Source: Helicobacteraceae bacterium (lineage in GTDB: Bacteria > Campylobacterota > Campylobacteria > Campylobacterales > Sulfurimonadaceae). Taken from it: a stretch of 61,497 nucleotides of DNA. Location of the stretch: positions 1 through 61,497 of the forward strand of contig JAMONY010000080.1 in the NCBI GenBank assembly GCA_027066325.1, in the 5' to 3' direction. Below are positions 1 through 9,363 of the stretch, one piece after another (the stretch's first letter is position 1; every line of letters starts with the position of its first letter). The notes under the pieces were generated by a model, which worked only from the letters and a program-made list of their open reading frames with translations, did not search any database and was not told where the DNA came from. The position numbers and the translations under genes are program-made.

Positions 1-1802
1 TCTCTATGTGGCACTGCAAGATTGTGACAATTTGCACAAAAAAGGTCAGGTGCAGAGCCATCTGGCTGTATGTCGCTATATGTAAACAGTGTGCCATCTG
101 GCTTAGTAGGCCAGTATTTATTTGGACCCTTTAACATAAAGTTGAAACTTGACCCATGTGGACCCTTAGGATCACCAGCATGCTCATTATCTGCGCCATG
201 ACAATCAGAGCAGTACATAGTCTGAGTTCCTACATTCTGATTCCAAGGGTGTCTCATGGCAGAAGCTTGCAAGGCTTTTGGAGCATATGAGCCTGGTCGG
301 TTATTGAGCGCCTCTACAACAGGGTGAGCAGACCGATTGTTTGGGTTGTACTCAAATGCAACATCTGTTGCTCTCATAAACTGACCCTCATTATCGATAA
401 CATTATTTGTCCAAGCTGTCTCTATCTCCATCATATCTGTAGATACTGTAGGACCAAGAGCCCAGTAAGAGTGACACTTAAAGCAGATCTGATGCTCTTT
501 TTCAGACTCTGCTAATGTTTGAAAGCTTGTAGGCTGTGTCCAAGCAGTAGGCCATATAGGCTGTACACCTTGCACTTTTCTTAACACTCCAGAGACTAAG
601 TTTGTTGGAGTATCTGGATACCACTGATTTGCTGGGGTGTGAGTCCCTTTGCCTACTCTATGTTGATTGTGACAATCCATACACTCCGCATGTTTAGAGG
701 TTGACCACTGTATGGTCTCTGCACCTGCTGGATCAGTTGAGCCAACACCATAAAGTGAATCTAAGTTAGTATGTTTGCCATCAGTTGTATTGGTGGGATG
801 AGCAAATGGACGATTTAAGATCGGCTCTATCTGTTTTGTACTATCTAGTGTACTTCCAGTACCGTGACAAGGTGCTGTACTTCTTGTACCTGATGCTCCC
901 ATATAGCAAGTATTTTGCTCAACATGGCGTAGTAGATATGGCTTACCAAGACCGTTGTGAGGAGTGTGGCAGTTGACACAGTAGAGATCTGTAGTTGAGA
1001 CTGCTCCTCCATTGTTGTATCGCTGCATCACCTCTACTGAAGTGTACTGTTTAACAGTATCTCTATGTGCTAACACACCGCTATCTCCAGGTGTTTTATC
1101 GTGACAAGCTATACATGTATTTTTAACATTTTGTCCATGATTTGGACTTATGACTCTAAGAAATTTCTTATTTTCTAGGTGTGGATTATGGCAAGATGAA
1201 CACTCTATGTAATTCTTACCAGCATAGTTATAGAGCTTTAATGGAGCATCTGGAACAGTTTTAAGCTCAATGCTCTTAGAGCCTACATCAAAGTTTTTAC
1301 TATTGGTAGGGTCGTACTCTATACCTACTGGATGGTGGATAGATAGGTCTGTTCCTATAAAACCTGGTGTTGCTGTTGTCATAGTTCCTGTTGTACTCGT
1401 TCCTATAACATCAAGATATGTATTGCCAAGCAGATTACCTCGTACCATGTAGACAGCACCAATAGCAACAGTACCATCATGACAACTCAAGCACTGTCTT
1501 GACACTGAGCCTGGTGTGCCTGCAACTGAACCCAAGTCTGTAGGGGTTGTGTAGCCACTTCTCTTAAGGTACTCGCTATCGTACATCACATAAGCAGATA
1601 CAGGCATGGCTCTATTCCAAAGAGGCTTACCAGGCTGAGCATCATGTACAATGTGGCAAAATACACACACCTCTTGTTCGCCTGAAGCTCTTATGTAATT
1701 TCCACTTGTAGCAGATAAATTGTGTTTTGTGTTATCAACAATGGCTTCTACTGATGAGAAGTAAGTTGCAACTATAAGTATATAAAACAGTATGCGCTTC
1801 AT
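1..1802 (-). CDS. Large multiheme c-type cytochrome, secreted (C-terminus outside window)
   Basis: This open frame of 600 codons runs off the left edge without a stop, so the protein is partial. It starts at an ATG at 1802 behind an AAGGA ribosome site, 10 bases after the upstream NHL gene. A signal peptide fills roughly residues 1-20. I read nine CxxCH heme sites, in order CVFCH, CLSCH, CSSCH, CIACH, CVNCH, CMDCH, CFKCH, CSDCH and CANCH. An extra CX12CH site lies between the fifth and sixth. The first four sites, with the HNLS, PLWN, HHPVGI and NPHL signatures, repeat the plan of the three small tetraheme cytochromes upstream, so the N-terminal third is a tetraheme (doubled-CxxCH) module and the rest is an extension. 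By position it is the likely terminal electron carrier of the locus, periplasmic or extracellular. Its substrate cannot be read from the sequence. Confidence 0.9.
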   Translation of the reverse strand, partial: MKRILFYILIVATYFSSVEAIVDNTKHNLSATSGNYIRASGEQEVCVFCHIVHDAQPGKPLWNRAMPVSAYVMYDSEYLKRSGYTTPTDLGSVAGTPGSVSRQCLSCHDGTVAIGAVYMVRGNLLGNTYLDVIGTSTTGTMTTATPGFIGTDLSIHHPVGIEYDPTNSKNFDVGSKSIELKTVPDAPLKLYNYAGKNYIECSSCHNPHLENKKFLRVISPNHGQNVKNTCIACHDKTPGDSGVLAHRDTVKQYTSVEVMQRYNNGGAVSTTDLYCVNCHTPHNGLGKPYLLRHVEQNTCYMGASGTRSTAPCHGTGSTLDSTKQIEPILNRPFAHPTNTTDGKHTNLDSLYGVGSTDPAGAETIQWSTSKHAECMDCHNQHRVGKGTHTPANQWYPDTPTNLVSGVLRKVQGVQPIWPTAWTQPTSFQTLAESEKEHQICFKCHSYWALGPTVSTDMMEIETAWTNNVIDNEGQFMRATDVAFEYNPNNRSAHPVVEALNNRPGSYAPKALQASAMRHPWNQNVGTQTMYCSDCHGADNEHAGDPKGPHGSSFNFMLKGPNKYWPTKPDGTLFTYSDIQPDGSAPDLFCANCHNLAVPHR

Positions 1803-1812
1803 GATAAATCCT

Positions 1813-2814
1813 TCACTTTTGATACTCTAGCATATTAAAGAGCTCTATTCTCATGTTGTATGAGTCGGTTACATATATTGTACCATCTTTAGATATTGAG
1901 ATATCTTGAGGTGCTACAAACTCTCCATCACCAACGCCTCTTTTTCCAAACACAAGCAACAGCTCACCATCGCTATTGAAAATCTGCACAGCATCAAATA
2001 GCGTATCGGTCACATAGAGGTTGTCAAACTTATCAACTGCTATACCTCTTGGACTTGAAAATGAGCCTATGCTATCGCCAGATTGTCCATATCTTCTAAT
2101 GTACTCTCCATCTGGATTAAACATCAACACTCGCCTATTCATAGAGTCTGCTACATATAGATTGCCTCTGCTATCTAGAGTGATATATGTTGGCTTATTG
2201 AGCTCACCTTCACCTTCACCCATTCTTGATATGTTATCAATGTATGTTCCATCTTTCTTATAAACTTTGATATGTGAACTTAGGGTATCGCTAACATAGA
2301 TGCGGTCTCTTACATGGTCTACTGCAACACCAGTTGGTCTTAGCAGTGAGGATGGGTGATGAATCTTTTTAATAGGATCTAGGTCTGAGTTGTATATAAA
2401 TAGAGATTGGAGCACAGAGTCTGTTATGTATATATTGCCTTTTTCATCAGTTGTGACATCTATAGGGGAGGAGAATCTTTGACCTTTATAGCCATCTATA
2501 CTCTCAAAGTTCTCTCTTTTAGTATCAAATACAATTACGCTTTTTTGTGCCATATCTGTCACATATATCTTATCTGCATCTATATGTATACCAAAAGGCT
2601 TAACAAGAGAGTTCTCTTCAGCACCAGCAAAAAACTCCCATATTTTTGTAAAAAATCCCTTACTAATTCCTAGATCTTCAGCTTTCATTACGCTTTTTTC
2701 ATACGAAATTCTAGCTTTTTCAGGAGGTGGTGGCCACACTATATTGGACGCTGCTAGTGTGTTAACTGCAAATATACATAAAAATGCTACTGGTATCAAT
2801 CTTAAATATTTCAT
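1813..2814 (-). CDS. Secreted NHL-repeat six-bladed beta-propeller protein
   Basis: The 333-residue product has an N-terminal signal peptide (about residues 1-22) but no lipobox. A short linker containing PPPPEKARISYE follows, then repeated NHL blades. Each blade carries an IYVTDS/LYVADS-type strand and a V..F...G turn, which gives about six blades between residues 95 and 330. It overlaps the upstream beta-barrel gene by 4 bases (ATGA), so translation is coupled. The NHL lipoprotein at 6290-7363 has the same PPPPE lead-in and blade plan, so the two are paralogues. Propellers of this kind are protein-binding scaffolds. Here the neighbours suggest a periplasmic or surface partner for cytochrome secretion or assembly, which is an inference. 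Confidence 0.9.
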   Translation of the reverse strand: MKYLRLIPVAFLCIFAVNTLAASNIVWPPPPEKARISYEKSVMKAEDLGISKGFFTKIWEFFAGAEENSLVKPFGIHIDADKIYVTDMAQKSVIVFDTKRENFESIDGYKGQRFSSPIDVTTDEKGNIYITDSVLQSLFIYNSDLDPIKKIHHPSSLLRPTGVAVDHVRDRIYVSDTLSSHIKVYKKDGTYIDNISRMGEGEGELNKPTYITLDSRGNLYVADSMNRRVLMFNPDGEYIRRYGQSGDSIGSFSSPRGIAVDKFDNLYVTDTLFDAVQIFNSDGELLLVFGKRGVGDGEFVAPQDISISKDGTIYVTDSYNMRIELFNMLEYQK

Positions 2815-4550
2815 ATATTTCGTCCTATAACAAAGTAATAATTTATATGCTCTCTATGACCAAATGCACCACCATTTTGCGAGGTATATCTAGTTCCTAC
2901 AGATGCATATATCTTACGAATAATATATGTTAACTTAGCATCACCAGAGTATGTGGTGTAGTCATACACACTATCACTTGAGACTCTACCGTGAGCATTA
3001 AAGTTCAAAGAGCGCATTAGCATATATTTGAGTGATAAACTAGCATAAGGGGTGACTCTATTTTTAAATATACCCTCTGCATAAGCAACGCCTGCATTAA
3101 AGCTCATCTTGCCATAATAGCCAAGATTGCCCCAGTAGCTCAGTCCAGTCTCAACTGTATATGCTTCAACAACCTTTACTGTTGCATTAACATCTTCATA
3201 AAGATTCTCATCTCTATAGCCATTAAATCTAACAAAAAAGTTTGTGCTACTTGCAAGTGGCTGAGTCAATCCAGCTGCATAAACTGCACGATTTGTATAA
3301 TCATCTGCTGTTGAAAATCTCTGATAGTAACTTGTGTTGAGATAGATATTTGTTTTTGTACTCGGAAAACTCTGATCTAGTCCAGCACTTAGGGTGTAGC
3401 TAAAGATATTTTTATCTGATAAAGTTGAGTTAGCATCAACTCTATCATACTGCTCACTTCTGCCTGTAACGCTAAGACCAATACTACCTATGAGATTTTC
3501 TATAATTGTTTTTCTATAATTTGTACCAAGCATCAAACTTGTGTAGTTAAGCCCCAATGAGTCACCAAGTGCTTGAAAGTAGATAAAATTTTGGCTAAAC
3601 GACAATTCAGAGGTAGCTTGGTAGTTACTACCCTGATTAATGGTAATGTAGCTATTTTGATCATTTGCAACTCTGATAGAGTTGGCTGTGACTGAAAAAC
3701 TAGTAGATAGCTTTTTGCTAGCTAGATAATTCAAAGATACCGTTGCGGAGATATCTTCATTGTCATAATAGCTATAACTATAGTATCTAGCATAAGATCT
3801 TAAGCGCAACGCCTCACTCACTTTCCAGTCATAACCAACTCTAGCCTCATCGATATCTCCATCAATAGTTGTCAAGATACCAACACCGCTGTCTCTGTAT
3901 TCGTATTCAACAATTCTATGTGTATAGTCTGCATACATGGACTGATCACTACTAATCTGTTTTGTCATGCCGACCTTAAAACGCAACTCTTTATCTGTTG
4001 ATGTGGAGAACGACTCCTCTCTTCTTGAGTCACTATTTCTAAGTTCATAATTAAGATCAAATATATCAAGCAGTAGTGATCCAAATATGCCCATCCTATC
4101 TGCTTCATACTTTACAAAAGTATTTCTATCAGCTTGAGTGCTCCAGACTGGTGAATCTGCCCGTTCAGCATATAGTGTAAACGGGTAATCTGACTGTTTA
4201 ATAAAGTTTAGGTAGGCTCTATAGTTTGTATGTTCAGATCTGTAGCTAGTAGATGTTTTAGTTGAACTTGAGGTAATGGTGGCATCCGTATTGTCTATGT
4301 ATAGCGTTCCACCAATATCATAGGTGAGTAGCAATGGGCTATACAGATAGCTCTCATATCCTAGTGAGTATTTTTGTATCAGTGACAACTTATCATTAAG
4401 AGCATTTTGACTATCGATTTTATCATTGATAGCCCTAAACTCTATCTGCCCATAAAAACCTCTAGTATACATGGTCTCAGCCCAGACAGACTGAGTAGTA
4501 ACTAAGAGCAACGATACATAAATAAAAATTATTTTCAAGGATACTTTCAC
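2811..4550 (-). CDS. Outer-membrane beta-barrel protein of the cytochrome locus
   Basis: The 579-residue product begins with a signal peptide ending near VWAET (residues 20-26). The rest is alternating polar and aromatic beta strands typical of a large outer-membrane barrel, with many YxYxxY and SLSL patterns and no helical membrane segments. The GTG start at 4550 lies 13 bases after the prolyl isomerase stop. The length would fit a barrel of more than 20 strands, as in porins that sheath multiheme cytochromes. I recognise no specific family. The protein does not end in the usual C-terminal Phe but in GRNI, which is odd for a BAM substrate. The inferred job is the pore or secretion channel for the cytochromes encoded on both sides. 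Confidence 0.8.
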   Translation of the reverse strand: MKVSLKIIFIYVSLLLVTTQSVWAETMYTRGFYGQIEFRAINDKIDSQNALNDKLSLIQKYSLGYESYLYSPLLLTYDIGGTLYIDNTDATITSSSTKTSTSYRSEHTNYRAYLNFIKQSDYPFTLYAERADSPVWSTQADRNTFVKYEADRMGIFGSLLLDIFDLNYELRNSDSRREESFSTSTDKELRFKVGMTKQISSDQSMYADYTHRIVEYEYRDSGVGILTTIDGDIDEARVGYDWKVSEALRLRSYARYYSYSYYDNEDISATVSLNYLASKKLSTSFSVTANSIRVANDQNSYITINQGSNYQATSELSFSQNFIYFQALGDSLGLNYTSLMLGTNYRKTIIENLIGSIGLSVTGRSEQYDRVDANSTLSDKNIFSYTLSAGLDQSFPSTKTNIYLNTSYYQRFSTADDYTNRAVYAAGLTQPLASSTNFFVRFNGYRDENLYEDVNATVKVVEAYTVETGLSYWGNLGYYGKMSFNAGVAYAEGIFKNRVTPYASLSLKYMLMRSLNFNAHGRVSSDSVYDYTTYSGDAKLTYIIRKIYASVGTRYTSQNGGAFGHREHINYYFVIGRNI

Positions 4551-4563
4551 ACTATCTACCCGC

Positions 4564-5586
4564 CTATTTTAGATTTTTATATGAGCCAAAATACTCAATT
4601 TTTACCTCTTTTTTTGCCTCTGATGTAATATCTTCTAGCTTCTGCTTTTCATACTTCTTCTTTAAATCTTTTGCAAGATTAGTTTTAACAATATCAAAAC
4701 TTAGCTGCTCTGGAGGACTCTTGCCTTCAAGCTTTACAATATAACACCCTTTATCAAGCTCTATAATGCCACTTATCTCACCTATATTGAGCTTACTTGC
4801 AGTATCTTCAACATCAGCTTCTAACATACCTCGGTGAACAAAGCCCATGTCTCCACCATTGATGCGACTCATAGCTTCTGAGTACTCTGCTGCAACATCA
4901 GCAAAGATATTGATTGTTGCATTGGTATCTACTGTTATATTACCCTCATCAACCAACGCTTGTCGCTTAGCTATCTCACTCAATGCCTCTTTTGCTCTCT
5001 TCATAGCCTTGCTCTTACCCTTAGGATCTGTTGGGTTATTTTTAGTATAGATAATTCTAACTTTTAATTTCTCTGGCATCATAAATTTAAATTTATTTTT
5101 ATTATAATACTCTTCTAGCTCTTTCTCGCTAACTTCAGTCTCAATCTCTTTTTTATACAGACCCTCTAAGATACTATCTTTTTTCAGCTCTGCAACAAAA
5201 GAGTCATAAGTATAGAGTCTCTGTTTTAATGCTTCGCGCATTCTATCATCTGTTCCAAATCTCTTTTTAACTTCAGCCACTCTCTCTTTTATGATTTTAT
5301 CATCTGGCTTATAGCCACGGTTAATAGCATACAGAACTAACGATTCACGCTCAATAAGATCATCTATCGCCTCTTGTTTAACTTTCGCCAACTTCTCATC
5401 TGTGATGGTTGCATGATAAAAAGTACGAGGCATAAGAGCATCAACCTGACGCTTTAGTCTTGCCTCGGTGATAAGCACCTGATTGATGGCTACAACTGGC
5501 TCGTCTGTCTTGTTGTTATCAACCACATCTGATGCAAATGCACAATTTAAACCTATTATAAATACGATAAAGATAATTTTTTTCAA
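4564..5586 (-). CDS. SurA/PpiC-like periplasmic peptidyl-prolyl cis-trans isomerase
   Basis: The 340-residue product has a signal peptide (residues 1-19), an alpha-helical SurA-type chaperone region (about 25-165) and a parvulin rotamase domain (about 170-295). The rotamase domain carries the family signatures GGDMGFV and GCYIVKLEGKSP. A Lys-rich C-terminal helix follows. Translation starts at TTG 5586 behind AAGGA. Parvulin chaperones guide outer-membrane and secreted proteins through the periplasm. Its place between a tetraheme cytochrome and the large barrel gene suggests a client-specific folding factor for the barrel or the cytochromes. The family call is firm; the client assignment is inferred. 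Confidence 0.88.
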   Translation of the reverse strand: MKKIIFIVFIIGLNCAFASDVVDNNKTDEPVVAINQVLITEARLKRQVDALMPRTFYHATITDEKLAKVKQEAIDDLIERESLVLYAINRGYKPDDKIIKERVAEVKKRFGTDDRMREALKQRLYTYDSFVAELKKDSILEGLYKKEIETEVSEKELEEYYNKNKFKFMMPEKLKVRIIYTKNNPTDPKGKSKAMKRAKEALSEIAKRQALVDEGNITVDTNATINIFADVAAEYSEAMSRINGGDMGFVHRGMLEADVEDTASKLNIGEISGIIELDKGCYIVKLEGKSPPEQLSFDIVKTNLAKDLKKKYEKQKLEDITSEAKKEVKIEYFGSYKNLK

Positions 5587-5611
5587 TTTTTTTCCTTAAG
5601 TTTATCTACTA

Positions 5612-6286
5612 CTATTTGCCATGACAACCAAGACATAGTTGGCTCTGGCTATTGTTGATCCGTAAAAATAGACCTGATGTACTATGTGGATCATGACAGC
5701 TTGTACATCTAATCACACCCTCGGGCACAAGATCTCCTATACTATCTGCTCCAATCCAACCAAGCAGTGGTGTGCTTTGTGGTTTCAAACTAGCTTTTCT
5801 ACCATTAACACTATGTGGAGCATAATCTCTTCCAACTGGGTGTTGGTGTGAGTCATAAGTTACTGGTTGACCCAATAAGTTTGCCTCTTTTGTATGCTTT
5901 TGTGACTCTTCATTGTTTGATAGAACAATATTTGGGGCATTAATGCCATCGTGGCATGTTAAACAGACTCTTAAAATTGTGTCTGGTCTATTGGCATAGT
6001 CATAATCACTCTCATCTTGTGCGCCGTATATGGTAAAATTTTGACCAGAGTCCTGATTCCATTTTGGTGCAGTTTTACCAACATACTTATCATGCGGTAT
6101 ATGACACCACAAACATGGCTCCATGTTATTTTGCTTATCCTCTATCATTAAGCCCTTAAACATGTTGTGCTTGGTGGTCAACACACCCTTCTCACTGCCA
6201 CCTTCTATGCCATACCCATATGCACTCAATGCGTAGATACAACTACTCATTAGGACAACTATTAACTTAGTGACAGTTCGACTCAT
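5612..6286 (-). CDS. Tetraheme c-type cytochrome (doubled CxxCH family), operon copy
   Basis: The 224-residue product has a signal peptide (about residues 1-25) and four heme-binding motifs: CLWCH 58-62, CLTCH 108-112, CTSCH 194-198 and CLGCH 218-222. The spacing and flanking words (IPHD, MYG-like IYGA, CLTCHDG, HPVGRDY, SCHDPH) match the cytochromes at 7639-8382 and 8623-9363 and the N-terminus of the large cytochrome. A GAGGAG ribosome site overlaps the end of the NHL lipoprotein gene 3 bases upstream, so the two are probably co-translated. It is expected to be a periplasmic or exported electron carrier with His/His-ligated hemes. Histidines outside the CxxCH motifs (for example in HPVG) could be distal ligands. 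Confidence 0.9.
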   Translation of the reverse strand: MSRTVTKLIVVLMSSCIYALSAYGYGIEGGSEKGVLTTKHNMFKGLMIEDKQNNMEPCLWCHIPHDKYVGKTAPKWNQDSGQNFTIYGAQDESDYDYANRPDTILRVCLTCHDGINAPNIVLSNNEESQKHTKEANLLGQPVTYDSHQHPVGRDYAPHSVNGRKASLKPQSTPLLGWIGADSIGDLVPEGVIRCTSCHDPHSTSGLFLRINNSQSQLCLGCHGK

Positions 6287-6289
6287 AGC

Positions 6290-7363
6290 TTACTCCTCTT
6301 GTAACTGCTTAAGCTTTTGATACTTTTTTGGATTATTCTCTTTCCAAGCATCGTTCATGTATTGAAAAACTTGAACTCTACCGCTATAAGATCCAACAGC
6401 ATATAGCTTATCTTGCTCATCAATATAGAGTCCAGCTGGTAGGTAAAAATTACCAAGTCCAAAGCCGGCATTTCCAAAAAATAGCAACATTGTTCCATTG
6501 CTATCAAATATCTGAATATTGTTAAAAGCTGAATCTGCGATATATATATGTCCATCAGAGTCGATACCTATACCCTTTGGTCTAGCAAACATACCAGGTC
6601 GATCTCCAATTTTACCAAATTTTGAGATAAAATTACCATCTTTATCAAAAGTTTGCACTCTGAAGTTTTGGGTATCAACAATGACTACATTATTATTTCT
6701 TCTATCTATGGCTACATTGGTAGGGTAGTTAAACTCACCATCTTTGATGCCTCTTTTACCAAACTCAAATAGGCGCTTTCCATCCTTAAGGTCAAAAACC
6801 TTAATGTTGTGCTTAGAAGTATCTACAACATAGAGTCTATTTAACTCTTGATTGATGGCTATACCTGTTGGTCTACCAAATTCACCACTATCGCCAATGG
6901 CAAATACTAACTTTCCATTTTTATTATAGCCAAATACTTTATTGATCTTAGCATCCGATACATAAACTGTATTATCACTACCTATAGCTACACTAACAGG
7001 AAGTGCTAATTTTCCAGATGGCTTATCACCTAAAAATCTAACTTCACTTCTATTGTCATCGATTACAAATACAACACCTCTAGCTGTATCTGTAACATAT
7101 ACAATATCTTTATGAGCTGCTACACCATAAGGCTTAAATAGATTTTTGCCTACAGATGGTGCCTCTTCTCCTATAAAGGTATCTAGTGCACTATCATCAA
7201 CATAATCAACTTCACCTTTTAGAACATTAACAAAATATAATCTTGGCTCTTCAGGTGGCGGCGGAAGAACAAGATGAAAATCCTGCTTATCTTTTGTGGC
7301 ACACCCCGCCAAAAGTAAAATAACAATAGAGACCATCACGCTATAAAATAAAGTCCGCTTCAA
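6290..7363 (-). CDS. NHL-repeat beta-propeller lipoprotein
   Basis: I place the start at TTG 7363 rather than TTG 7369, because the AAGGAG site at 7371-7376 then has a spacing of 7 bases. The product is then about 357 residues. A lipobox LLAGC near residue 20 makes it a lipoprotein. A PPPPEEPRLYF linker and about six NHL blades follow, with repeats such as VYVTDTARG, VYVSDAKIN, LYVVDTSKH and IYIADSAFN. It is the first gene of the tight minus-strand run and a paralogue of the soluble NHL protein at 1813-2814. One anchored and one free propeller in the same operon suggest a membrane-tethered scaffold and a mobile partner, which is an inference. Confidence 0.9.
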   Translation of the reverse strand: MKRTLFYSVMVSIVILLLAGCATKDKQDFHLVLPPPPEEPRLYFVNVLKGEVDYVDDSALDTFIGEEAPSVGKNLFKPYGVAAHKDIVYVTDTARGVVFVIDDNRSEVRFLGDKPSGKLALPVSVAIGSDNTVYVSDAKINKVFGYNKNGKLVFAIGDSGEFGRPTGIAINQELNRLYVVDTSKHNIKVFDLKDGKRLFEFGKRGIKDGEFNYPTNVAIDRRNNNVVIVDTQNFRVQTFDKDGNFISKFGKIGDRPGMFARPKGIGIDSDGHIYIADSAFNNIQIFDSNGTMLLFFGNAGFGLGNFYLPAGLYIDEQDKLYAVGSYSGRVQVFQYMNDAWKENNPKKYQKLKQLQEE

Positions 7364-7497
7364 GGTCAATCTCCTTTTTAGATAATGTTTTTCAGTATTA
7401 AGTATATCTTATTAATAATTAGGAATACTTATGTACTCTAAGACTAAGTAGTATACCTCAAGTTAGCTTTAGAATTCTGTAACTGCTTATAGTAAAG

Positions 7498-7503
7498 ATT
7501 ATA
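7498..7503 (-). promoter_or_regulatory. Candidate -10 box of the main cytochrome operon
   Basis: The 269-base gap 7370-7638 contains TATAAT on the minus strand at 7498-7503, which would start a transcript near 7491 with a leader of about 130 bases before the NHL lipoprotein. Sigma-70 promoters of this phylum have weak -35 boxes, so the -10 alone is the evidence. The rest of the gap is A+T-rich, apart from the hairpin at 7589-7610. Confidence 0.35.
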
Positions 7504-7588
7504 TAACTATCTAGGGGAGATAAAAAATTGAAATAACAACATAGCAAAAAAATTACATAATCTCTCTACTATGTTGACATAAACAACT

Positions 7589-7610
7589 CAACAGGACAGA
7601 GGTCCTGTTG
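7589..7610 (-). terminator. Hairpin terminator after the 7639-8382 cytochrome gene
   Basis: A perfect 9-bp stem (CAACAGGAC / GTCCTGTTG) with a 4-base loop lies 28 bases past the stop codon. On the minus strand it is followed by a moderately T-rich tract (GTTGTTTATG). It separates this tetraheme gene from the operon that starts downstream. Confidence 0.55.
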
Positions 7611-7638
7611 CGTCTATACTAAACAGATAAGCAGATTG

Positions 7639-8382
7639 CTACTTATCGTGACAAGATAGACATAGTTGACTTCCAGCATTTGCAGCGCCATTAGCACCTA
7701 AACGCTTAAGGAATGTTGTTGACTGAGTTGCTCCAAGGTGTGGATCATGACAACTAACACACTCAACTTTACCATTTCTTAGAACATCAGCAATGGTTGT
7801 TGCACCACTCCAAGTACCAAGTAGGTTATCGGTTGTTGGTTTAAGACTAGCTGGTCTAGGCGCAGTGTCTACATAAGTGATAGATACTGGGTGATCATTA
7901 GTAAGATCTGTACCGATCTGAGTTACACCAGCTGGCATAGTAAATGCCGCACCACTTTGACCCATAAAGTCTACAAATCCACCACCAGGTACATATCCAC
8001 CAGAACCAGGTGCATTAACAACTGAGTTAATACCACTTACACCATCATGACAGCTTAGACAAGCTAGTGAAGGTGAGTTTGGTTGTGCATCAGGTGAGTT
8101 ACCAGCAACAGTAGTGCCATACATAGTAAAGCTACCAGAAGCTGGAGTTGCTTTGTTCCATATAGGTACCGTTGGGAAACCTGTATTTGCTGCGTGAGGC
8201 GTGTGACAAAATACACATATTTCATCATTAAAAGTTGCTGATTCTGCAGCACTTGCCTTAATAGTACCTAAACCAGTAGCAGATAAGTTGTGTAGGCTGT
8301 TGGTAATATCTGCGTTAGCTGATACACCTAGCACCAAAGCAGCTGAGACTGCTATCTTTGTGAATGTCGAAGATTTCATCAT
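7639..8382 (-). CDS. Tetraheme c-type cytochrome (doubled CxxCH family), stand-alone copy
   Basis: The 247-residue product has a signal peptide ending around SANA (residues 21-24). Its four heme sites are CVFCH 56-60, CLSCH 108-112, CVSCH 208-212 and CLSCH 241-245. Other conserved elements are HNLS near residue 31, PIWNK, MYGT, NDHPVSI and CHDPHL. A near-perfect AGGAGGAC ribosome site precedes the ATG, stronger than those of neighbouring genes, which suggests high expression. It has its own upstream region of 240 bases and its own terminator, so it is probably monocistronic. Gly/Ala-rich stretches between hemes 2 and 3 are typical of exported cytochromes. Its role is inferred as an abundant periplasmic or extracellular electron carrier feeding the operon-encoded conduit. 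Confidence 0.92.
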   Translation of the reverse strand: MMKSSTFTKIAVSAALVLGVSANADITNSLHNLSATGLGTIKASAAESATFNDEICVFCHTPHAANTGFPTVPIWNKATPASGSFTMYGTTVAGNSPDAQPNSPSLACLSCHDGVSGINSVVNAPGSGGYVPGGGFVDFMGQSGAAFTMPAGVTQIGTDLTNDHPVSITYVDTAPRPASLKPTTDNLLGTWSGATTIADVLRNGKVECVSCHDPHLGATQSTTFLKRLGANGAANAGSQLCLSCHDK

Positions 8383-8426
8383 TGTCCTCCTATGACTTTG
8401 ATTTCATATGTAGTATATCTACTCTT

Positions 8427-8443
8427 TGTAAAATTAGTGTAAA
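8427..8443 (-). promoter_or_regulatory. Shared upstream element of the tetraheme genes, copy 1
   Basis: The minus strand reads TTTACACTAATTTTACA, a near-direct repeat of TTTACA at about one helical turn. The same 17-mer with one base changed occurs at 9435-9451 in front of the paralogous gene. Here it lies about 45 bases before the ATG and about 9 bases from a TATACT -10-like box at 8412-8417. A binding site for a response regulator is possible. Confidence 0.4.
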
Positions 8444-8542
8444 AACTTACTACATGTTGCATACAAACCACTAAAACATGAGATATAAGTATAAGTATTA
8501 AGAGAGATAGGCTACTATCTTGGTCTATGAGGACTTAATAAG

Positions 8543-8548
8543 ATTATA
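8543..8548 (-). promoter_or_regulatory. Second candidate -10 box upstream of the 7639-8382 cytochrome
   Basis: TATAAT on the minus strand lies between the terminator of the upstream gene and the shared element. It would give a leader of about 150 bases. It competes with the nearer TATACT at 8412-8417 as the promoter, and the sequence alone does not decide between them. Confidence 0.3.
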
Positions 8549-8576
8549 GAGAGTAAAGTTGATATCGAAAAAATGG

Positions 8577-8610
8577 TAAAAAGAGTAGAGACTAGCGCCA
8601 AGGCTAGTCT
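8577..8610 (-). terminator. Rho-independent terminator after the 8623-9363 cytochrome gene
   Basis: An 8-bp perfect stem (AGACTAGC / GCTAGTCT) with a 6-base loop lies at 8589-8610, 12 bases past the stop. On the minus strand it is followed by CTACTCTTTTTACC, which carries a run of five T. Confidence 0.6.
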
Positions 8611-8622
8611 AAAAAGAGATCT

Positions 8623-9363
8623 CTACTTAGCGTGACAAGTTAAACAGAGTTTACTTCCGTTATTGTTTATGCTTCGTAAAAAAGTCGTTGCTTGTCCTAG
8701 GTGTGGATCATGACAACTTGAACACTGAACTTTTGCTATACCATCTGCACCAGTTCTTAAAAGATCTGCAATAGTTGTAGCATTTTCAAAACCAATAATT
8801 GGTGTTGATGGATCTCTTAGAGAAGCTGGAGATGTCTCTGGGCTACCATTGTATATATATGGTATTGAGATAGGATGATCATTGGTGAGGCTTTCTGAAA
8901 ATGCAGCACTACCAACAGCTTTGACAAAATCTGTCATCGTTCTATTTTTACCTATCTTATTGCTTGCTCCAGTTGGATCATAATTTCCTGTACCAGGAGC
9001 ATTGATAACACTATTGAGAGCACTAACTCCATCATGACAAGTAAGACAAGCCATACTAGCACCAGTAGGTGTAGCATCAGTAAGAGTACCTGCTATGGTT
9101 GATCCAGCTGTACCTGTAGCAGTAGCGCCATACATGGTAAATGTTGTAGATGTAGCCGGTTTATTCCATAGTGGTGCTCCATCAAAAGATGAATCTGCTC
9201 CGTGTGGGGTGTGGCAATAGACACATATTTGAGAATTATCAGGTATATTACCAACATCATCAGCACTAGTGCCCAAGTCATGTAAGCTTCCAAATATCTG
9301 AGCATTTAAGCCAGAGGTCATCAACAACGATGCTCCTAACCCTAAAAGTATCTTTTTCTTCAT
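8623..9363 (-). CDS. Tetraheme c-type cytochrome (doubled CxxCH family), stand-alone copy
   Basis: The 246-residue product has a signal peptide ending at SGLNA (about residue 21). Its heme sites are CVYCH 47-51, CLTCH 106-110, CSSCH 214-218 and CLTCH 240-244. The words TPHGAD, PLWNK, MYGA, NDHPISI and CHDPHL are shared with the next gene downstream, so the two are tandem paralogues. It is followed by its own terminator and preceded by the same 17-base upstream element as its paralogue. The divergent neighbour is purH. The inferred role is the same as for its paralogue; why three related tetraheme proteins are kept is not evident from the sequence. Confidence 0.92.
   Translation of the reverse strand: MKKKILLGLGASLLMTSGLNAQIFGSLHDLGTSADDVGNIPDNSQICVYCHTPHGADSSFDGAPLWNKPATSTTFTMYGATATGTAGSTIAGTLTDATPTGASMACLTCHDGVSALNSVINAPGTGNYDPTGASNKIGKNRTMTDFVKAVGSAAFSESLTNDHPISIPYIYNGSPETSPASLRDPSTPIIGFENATTIADLLRTGADGIAKVQCSSCHDPHLGQATTFLRSINNNGSKLCLTCHAK

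Follow-up and report, generated by a model that had tools for sequence, protein, structure and literature searches.

We analyzed a 61,497-nt stretch of DNA (the window) from Helicobacteraceae bacterium GCA_027066325.1, contig JAMONY010000080.1, in which positions 1 to 9363 hold a candidate locus for extracellular electron transfer. We found eight co-directional open reading frames (ORFs) there, all on the minus strand, encoding three tetrahaem cytochromes (termed C1, C2, and TET), a large cytochrome with ∼12 haems, two NHL propellers (NHL1, a lipoprotein, and NHL2), a PpiC isomerase, and a barrel of 579 amino acids (aa) (Table 1). NHL repeats, PpiC/SurA-N, and paired-CXXCH cytochromes were recognized among the proteins with Pfam and NCBIfam. 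These matches, the ORFs, and an AlphaFold2 model of the barrel confirmed the gene content reported in an initial annotation, namely, four related multihaem cytochromes, two propellers, a PpiC protein, and a barrel on one strand; the lipid anchor that it attributed to one propeller was read as a lipobox in NHL1. From position 7369 downwards, the six genes from NHL1 to the large cytochrome are separated by 3, 25, 13, -4, and 10 bases, and the spacings between C1 and C2 and between C2 and NHL1 are 240 and 269 bases. Both C1 and C2 are followed by a terminator-like hairpin (11 terminator-like sites in the region versus 4.7 in shuffles), which would be consistent with separate, higher expression of these two genes than of the six-gene run. 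No foreign base composition was seen, the G+C content being 37 to 40% in the locus versus 38 to 42% elsewhere in the window.

The gene for the large cytochrome is cut at the contig end of the window. Positions 1 to 127 match, without any difference, the terminal bases of contig C3 from the same genome, in what resembles an assembly overlap, and joining the two contigs completed the leftward extension called for by the initial annotation and yielded a full protein of 709 aa. Downstream of this gene, C3 encodes a 161-aa exported protein, a lipoprotein with RCC1/cadherin repeats, and a 1075-aa CcsBA (match to 7S9Y, 4e-217). The lipoprotein (L003:9791-11803; 670 aa, cadherin-like/immunoglobulin and RCC1 repeats), which sits between the small exported protein and CcsBA, is absent at that position from the other Campylobacterota loci examined.

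Table 1. Coordinates of the features of the locus in the window
Feature	Position	Strand	Evidence
C1, 246-aa exported tetrahaem cytochrome resembling OmcE/UetA; candidate filament subunit	8623..9363	-	4 CXXCH and 4 distal His common to OmcE; position kept in other loci
Terminator-like hairpin directly 3' of C1	8589..8610	-	Stem of 8 pairs followed by a T-rich tail
C2, 247-aa exported tetrahaem cytochrome resembling OmcE; candidate filament subunit	7639..8382	-	phmmer 7TFS 1.2e-23, 9YUQ 2e-17
Terminator-like hairpin directly 3' of C2, between C1/C2 and the six-gene run	7589..7610	-	
NHL1, six-bladed propeller lipoprotein, 359 aa, UetH/I-like	6290..7369	-	PF01436 2.8e-27; lipobox LLAGC; position kept across loci
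TET, third tetrahaem cytochrome, 224 aa	5612..6286	-	7TFS 1.4e-12, 9YUQ 2.4e-16; subset of loci only
PpiC/SurA-type prolyl isomerase, 340 aa, UetB-like	4564..5586	-	PF13145 3.2e-14, SurA_N_3 8e-9
UetC-like beta-barrel, predicted for the outer membrane, of 579 aa with 28 strands in the model	2811..4550	-	AlphaFold2 mean pLDDT 89.4; homologues; hhalign
NHL2, exported propeller, 333 aa, UetH/I-like	1813..2814	-	PF01436 2.4e-27; flanked by the barrel and large cytochrome genes in almost every locus
UetJ-like large cytochrome of the proposed conduit, residues 1 to 600 of 709	1..1802	-	remainder on contig C3 (L003:12242-12696)

We compared the cytochromes with solved structures. Each of the three tetrahaem proteins contains four CXXCH motifs, and the OmcE filament structure (PDB entry 7TFS) was matched by C2 and TET (Table 1) as well as by the N-terminal part of the large cytochrome (1.7e-22); all three also matched PDB entry 9YUQ. 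In an alignment with 7TFS and 9YUQ, C1, C2, TET, and the large cytochrome share all four CXXCH motifs and the four distal histidines (TKH, TPH, NDHP, and DPH positions). Judged by these alignments, all four cytochromes of the locus are homologues of OmcE, which forms a tetrahaem filament in Geobacter. In OmcE filaments, one haem is ligated by a histidine of the adjacent subunit (PMC9473688, PMC12954529), and the N-terminal histidine aligning with the TKH of OmcE is conserved in all four proteins; we assume that it is the inter-subunit haem ligand. PDB entry 9YUQ, a "putative multiheme cytochrome c" with 16 identical chains, is a better match to TET than OmcE is and may be a further filament of the OmcE type. 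TET itself is present in loci L020, L021, L022, L025, L029 to L031, and L039.

We then looked at the set as a whole. The uetABCDEFGHIJ cluster (undecahaem electron transfer) of "Candidatus Tenderia electrophaga" encodes a tetrahaem cytochrome (UetA), a prolyl isomerase (PPIase; UetB), a barrel (UetC), trihaem cytochromes (UetD/E/G), NHL proteins (UetH/I), and an undecahaem cytochrome (UetJ) (PMC10734462, PMC12575090). Uet has been reported too in relatives of Gallionella and Leptothrix, and it has been linked to electron uptake at cathodes (PMC12575090). Homology to Uet was measured against a gammaproteobacterial locus, L059, whose gene order (tetrahaem, PPIase, 617-aa barrel, two trihaem, 512-aa lipoprotein, trihaem, two NHL, and 11-haem) equals uetA to uetJ. 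Profiles of the Campylobacterota proteins matched the tetrahaem protein (1.8e-42), the PPIase (6.5e-39), both propellers (7.2e-43 and 1.9e-76), and the 11-haem protein (1.5e-59) of L059, and the haem positions of this last protein align with those of the Campylobacterota large cytochromes. The set in the window is homologous to L059 in every part except the barrel, for which the support is profile-profile only. Along with the OmcE homology, this match to a porin-cytochrome system supports the electron conduit or filament proposed in the initial annotation. Its additional remark about the lack of a well-described system with exactly this layout should be corrected, as the uet cluster comes close without being identical.

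The barrel had no sequence match in Pfam, NCBIfam, or the PDB. AlphaFold2, run with 12 homologues, predicted 28 strands after a signal helix, with the mean predicted local distance difference test (pLDDT) score given in Table 1 and a predicted template modeling (pTM) score of 0.66. Comparison of the barrel family with the barrels in the UetC position (a mixed set) by hhalign gave 98.1% (E value, 1.3e-13) versus 0.3 to 0.9% for reversed controls; a direct search with the hidden Markov model of the barrel did not match the L059 barrel, and a general resemblance among outer-membrane barrels may contribute to the hhalign score. The initial annotation had considered that the barrel might resemble a known, unrelated porin, and we found that it aligns with the UetC-position barrels.

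We searched 397 Campylobacterota genomes with the barrel profile and found the barrel in 11 of them, covering seven genera, and also in G028. The ordered gene set, which the initial annotation had proposed to seek across Campylobacterota, proved to be conserved as a unit: as far as the contigs extend (complete or contig-cut), all 11 further loci show the order tetrahaem, NHL1, (TET), PpiC, barrel, NHL2, large cytochrome, small protein, and CcsBA. A scan of named genomes added Hydrogenimonas, Sulfurimonas, and other Campylobacterales metagenome-assembled genomes, together with Nitrospirae, Phycisphaerae, Rhodoferax, and one gammaproteobacterium. Outside Campylobacterota, the core of NHL, barrel, NHL, and large cytochrome recurs with changes. 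The gene set thus recurs in order across Campylobacterota and is rearranged in Nitrospirota, Planctomycetota, and Proteobacteria. The distances between loci correlate for all pairs of genes tested (Mantel r, 0.64 to 0.90; 0/1000 permutations). Together, these data show that the locus is conserved as a co-evolving unit.

The proteins of the window are closer to those of other families than to those of their own family (for the large cytochrome, 65 to 68% versus 49 to 53%), and the barrel is absent from the seven other genomes of the genus that were searched (7/7). Because of this closer identity and of the missing barrel, a transfer of the locus between families is likely. Additional genes were seen upstream of some loci. 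L007, L023, and L027, of the Sulfurimonas type (e.g., L007:2402-5091), carry extra monohaem, 11-haem, and 8-haem cytochromes just upstream, which are missing in the window and are possible periplasmic links. A dCache sensor, a response regulator, and a histidine kinase are encoded directly upstream in L020 (L020:1212-4148), L026, and L028, suggesting signal-controlled expression.

Joined across the two contigs, the large cytochrome contains ten CXXCH motifs, one CX12CH motif, and a terminal CXCH; this short-spaced terminal site is CX4CH in most relatives. CX12CH or CX13CH was found in every Campylobacterota homologue long enough to cover the site and in the Nitrospirota locus L051, and the corresponding site is an ordinary CXXCH in Planctomycetota, in Rhodoferax, and in L059 and a CX7CH in two Nitrospirota loci. 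The CXXCH of other phyla, set against the CX12-13CH of Campylobacterota and L051, indicates that an otherwise ordinary haem site has been expanded. A mere loss of this haem was ruled out, both cysteines and the histidine being invariant in 11/11 aligned cross-phylum sequences. Several variants of the large cytochrome gene were noted. Second copies accompanied by a PpiC-like protein and lacking a typical barrel occur in L033, L035, and L057 (L033 and L057 being in genomes that also hold a full cluster), and those of L033 and L035 also come with an NHL-containing protein of ∼640 aa. The gene is apparently split into 4-haem and 7-haem genes in a Nitrospirae locus (L081:9947-11910). In a Phycisphaerales locus (L060:4966-6942), the propeller and a five-haem cytochrome form one fusion protein of 658 aa; the two are separate genes in relatives.

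The haem lyase of the cluster follows the distribution of the barrel. Cluster-type CcsBA, at least 55% identical to that of the window, was found in 11/11 barrel genomes and in 0/386 others, and the next identity level showed a clear drop to 51%. A second CcsBA is kept in nine of the 11 barrel genomes (not in G000 and G285), and six such copies, inspected individually, had 43 to 47% identity. An extra CcsBA in every cluster genome was initially considered and dropped, since the genome of the window has the cluster-type copy only. In L051, also a CX12CH locus, ResB and CcsA are encoded directly downstream, and genes reading as cytochrome c maturation (Ccm) come directly after the uet-ordered cluster of L059 (L059:12467-19499). 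In Wolinella, special lyases are needed for CX15CH (CcsA1) and CXXCK (PMC6976685). The Wolinella CcsA1/MccA pair likewise ties a CcsBA-type lyase of Campylobacterota to a cytochrome with a long-spaced haem motif, but there CX15CH belongs to a sulfite reductase, whereas here CX12CH belongs to a conduit cytochrome and we infer the specificity of the lyase. Because of the co-occurrence of CcsBA and barrel, the ResB/CcsA and Ccm-type genes, and the Wolinella precedent, it is plausible that the CcsBA of the cluster is a dedicated lyase for the CX12CH haem, although co-inheritance of neighboring genes would yield the same co-occurrence.

We propose that the locus encodes a Uet-type extracellular electron conduit with OmcE-like filaments, a reading to which we assign a probability of about 0.78. 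It draws on the homology and order of the parts, the OmcE homology, the 28-strand barrel prediction, and the conservation of the unit, and the topology, filaments, electron path, and lyase specificity would be as follows. The barrel would lie in the outer membrane and hold or dock the ∼12-haem cytochrome, so that haems would form a chain across or at the membrane. C1 and C2, probably transcribed separately from the other genes, would polymerize outside the cell into an insulated filament, the base of which would contact the large cytochrome at its OmcE-like N-terminal domain. The NHL1 lipoprotein and NHL2 may be scaffolds for docking or assembly, and folding of the barrel and the cytochrome may be aided by the PpiC/SurA-type isomerase. 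The cluster-linked CcsBA would attach haem, CX12CH probably being handled poorly by the housekeeping lyase. Electron flow could be outward, with Mn/Fe oxides or a partner as the acceptor, or inward, with minerals, electrodes, or a partner as the source. The precedents point both ways, Uet being linked to cathodic electron uptake (PMC12575090) and a Sulfurimonas being reported to pass electrons to MnO2 (PMC11748539). Both directions are possible because the genome of the window contains haem-copper oxidase-family and molybdopterin oxidoreductase genes; it also has a NapC/NrfH-type candidate for the quinol link.

Several observations weigh against this proposal. The trihaem UetD/E/G and UetF are absent from the cluster in the window, from C3, and from the Campylobacterota loci. 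Foldseek comparison of the barrel with the PDB returned generic large barrels (TM, 0.25 to 0.42), MtrB ranking fourth with a TM of 0.38, and this result was left unused for family assignment. The AlphaFold2 model of the large cytochrome (10 sequences) had a pLDDT of 31 and was left uninterpreted, and we infer its insertion in the barrel. In the genome of the window, the cluster CcsBA is the sole one found, hence there is no extra copy, and G285 likewise has one.

The conduit could also operate without a filament, C1, C2, and TET being single soluble or surface carriers with the OmcE fold that replace the trihaem UetDEG between the inner membrane, the barrel, and the surface. The trihaem carriers of Uet are missing here, yet the periplasm must be crossed, and the position of TET inside the operon between NHL1 and PpiC, the existence of several tetrahaem paralogues, and the presence of the same kind of N-terminal domain in the large cytochrome, which is not a filament subunit, would all fit such a role. 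We nevertheless consider it rather unlikely, given that the nearest solved homologues are OmcE (7TFS) and the 16-chain entry 9YUQ, that the TKH-aligned histidine is kept in all these proteins (its role as inter-subunit ligand being assumed), and that hairpins set C1 and C2 apart from the operon, as if they were made in excess.

Less probable still is a secretion and assembly machine, in which the barrel, PpiC, and the propellers would form an export channel for the OmcE-like subunits and the large cytochrome would be a cap or tip. Filament subunits must indeed pass the outer membrane, large secreted cytochromes of other bacteria come with PPIase and propeller proteins (PMC5539420), and outer-membrane ushers are among the Foldseek matches of the barrel. 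However, ushers and other barrels match equally poorly, and electron transfer is indicated by the gene for a ∼12-haem cytochrome, which is conserved next to that of the barrel in several phyla; conduit and export roles would, moreover, be compatible. The long-spaced motif raises yet another alternative, a respiratory reductase complex of the periplasm or surface that acts on a soluble substrate and has CX12CH as its catalytic haem, by analogy with the MccA/SirA sulfite reductase, where such a motif is essential for activity and is served by special maturation functions (PMC6976685). We judge this very improbable: the homologues from Planctomycetota, Rhodoferax, and the gammaproteobacterium show an ordinary CXXCH at the same site, so the long spacing is not needed for the shared function, no NCBIfam reductase model matched at cutoff, and the large cytochrome is accompanied by a large barrel and OmcE homologues.

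Going beyond the conduit with filaments, we tentatively suggest, while rating it somewhat below even odds, that Campylobacterota possess a distinct electron-wire module that moves horizontally and in which an OmcE-type nanowire is plugged into a conduit made of the 28-strand barrel and a dodecahaem cytochrome, with its own haem lyase because CXXCH has shifted to CX12CH. Maturation genes (CcsBA in Campylobacterota, ResB/CcsA in one Nitrospirota locus, and Ccm-type genes in one gammaproteobacterium) would then have become coupled to the conduit more than once. Sulfurimonas has been reported to use solid manganese oxide for the oxidation of sulfide (cited in PMC11748539), and that study found no complete porin-cytochrome complex in the Sulfurimonas genome that it examined; our literature search on manganese reduction by Sulfurimonas marisnigri returned nothing specific. 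The locus conserved in Sulfurimonas, Hydrogenimonas, and relatives is a concrete conduit candidate. Its physical linkage of OmcE-type nanowire genes to an outer-membrane conduit bears on how cytochrome filaments connect to the cell, and the exact co-occurrence of lyase type and conduit offers a natural way to test why several haem lyases are retained in some bacteria.

We finally compared the locus with known systems. PCC3, characterized by a porin, very large cytochromes with a median of 21 and 34 haems, and a five-helix inner-membrane protein, was not matched by this cluster, which has ∼12 haems and no such gene. MtrCAB/MtoAB also pair a large outer-membrane barrel with a multihaem cytochrome, and MtrB is among the structural matches, but we found no sequence homology, and the ∼12-haem cytochrome is of the paired-CXXCH/OmcE type, unlike the decahaem MtrA (in the NCBIfam scan, the DmsE model of the DmsE/MtrA decahaem family scored 20.7 versus a cutoff of 192 bits). 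The Oet conduit and the PPIase/propeller/large-cytochrome operon of sulfate reducers that are partners of anaerobic methanotrophic archaea (PMC10553843, PMC5539420) share with the locus a barrel, multihaem cytochromes, a PPIase, a six-bladed propeller, and putative nanowire cytochromes. The cytochromes of those bacteria, however, carry 16 and 26 haems or resemble OmcX/OmcS and include an extracellular lipoprotein, whereas the locus here has a UetJ-like ∼12-haem cytochrome and no lipoprotein cytochrome. The likeness to OmcE of Geobacter sulfurreducens extends to full-length homology, the four CXXCH motifs and four distal histidines, and a protein end right after the last haem; here, however, there are two or three paralogues, physically linked to the barrel-cytochrome set, and their assembly into filaments is proposed.

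With Uet, the locus shares homologous UetA, UetB, UetH/I, and UetJ, a candidate barrel for the UetC role, and a 3' end with a propeller followed by the large cytochrome. It differs by the relocation of one propeller upstream, beside the tetrahaem genes, by a third tetrahaem gene, by CX12CH in place of CXXCH at one haem, by a barrel similarity at the profile level only, and by the cluster-type CcsBA and the small exported protein downstream. Because the trihaem and UetF genes are missing, we regard it as a Uet variant rather than a strict member. None of the papers that we searched describes Uet in Campylobacterota, and we consider as new this Uet variant in the phylum, its CX12CH site, the cluster-type CcsBA co-occurring with the barrel, and the signs of transfer between families.

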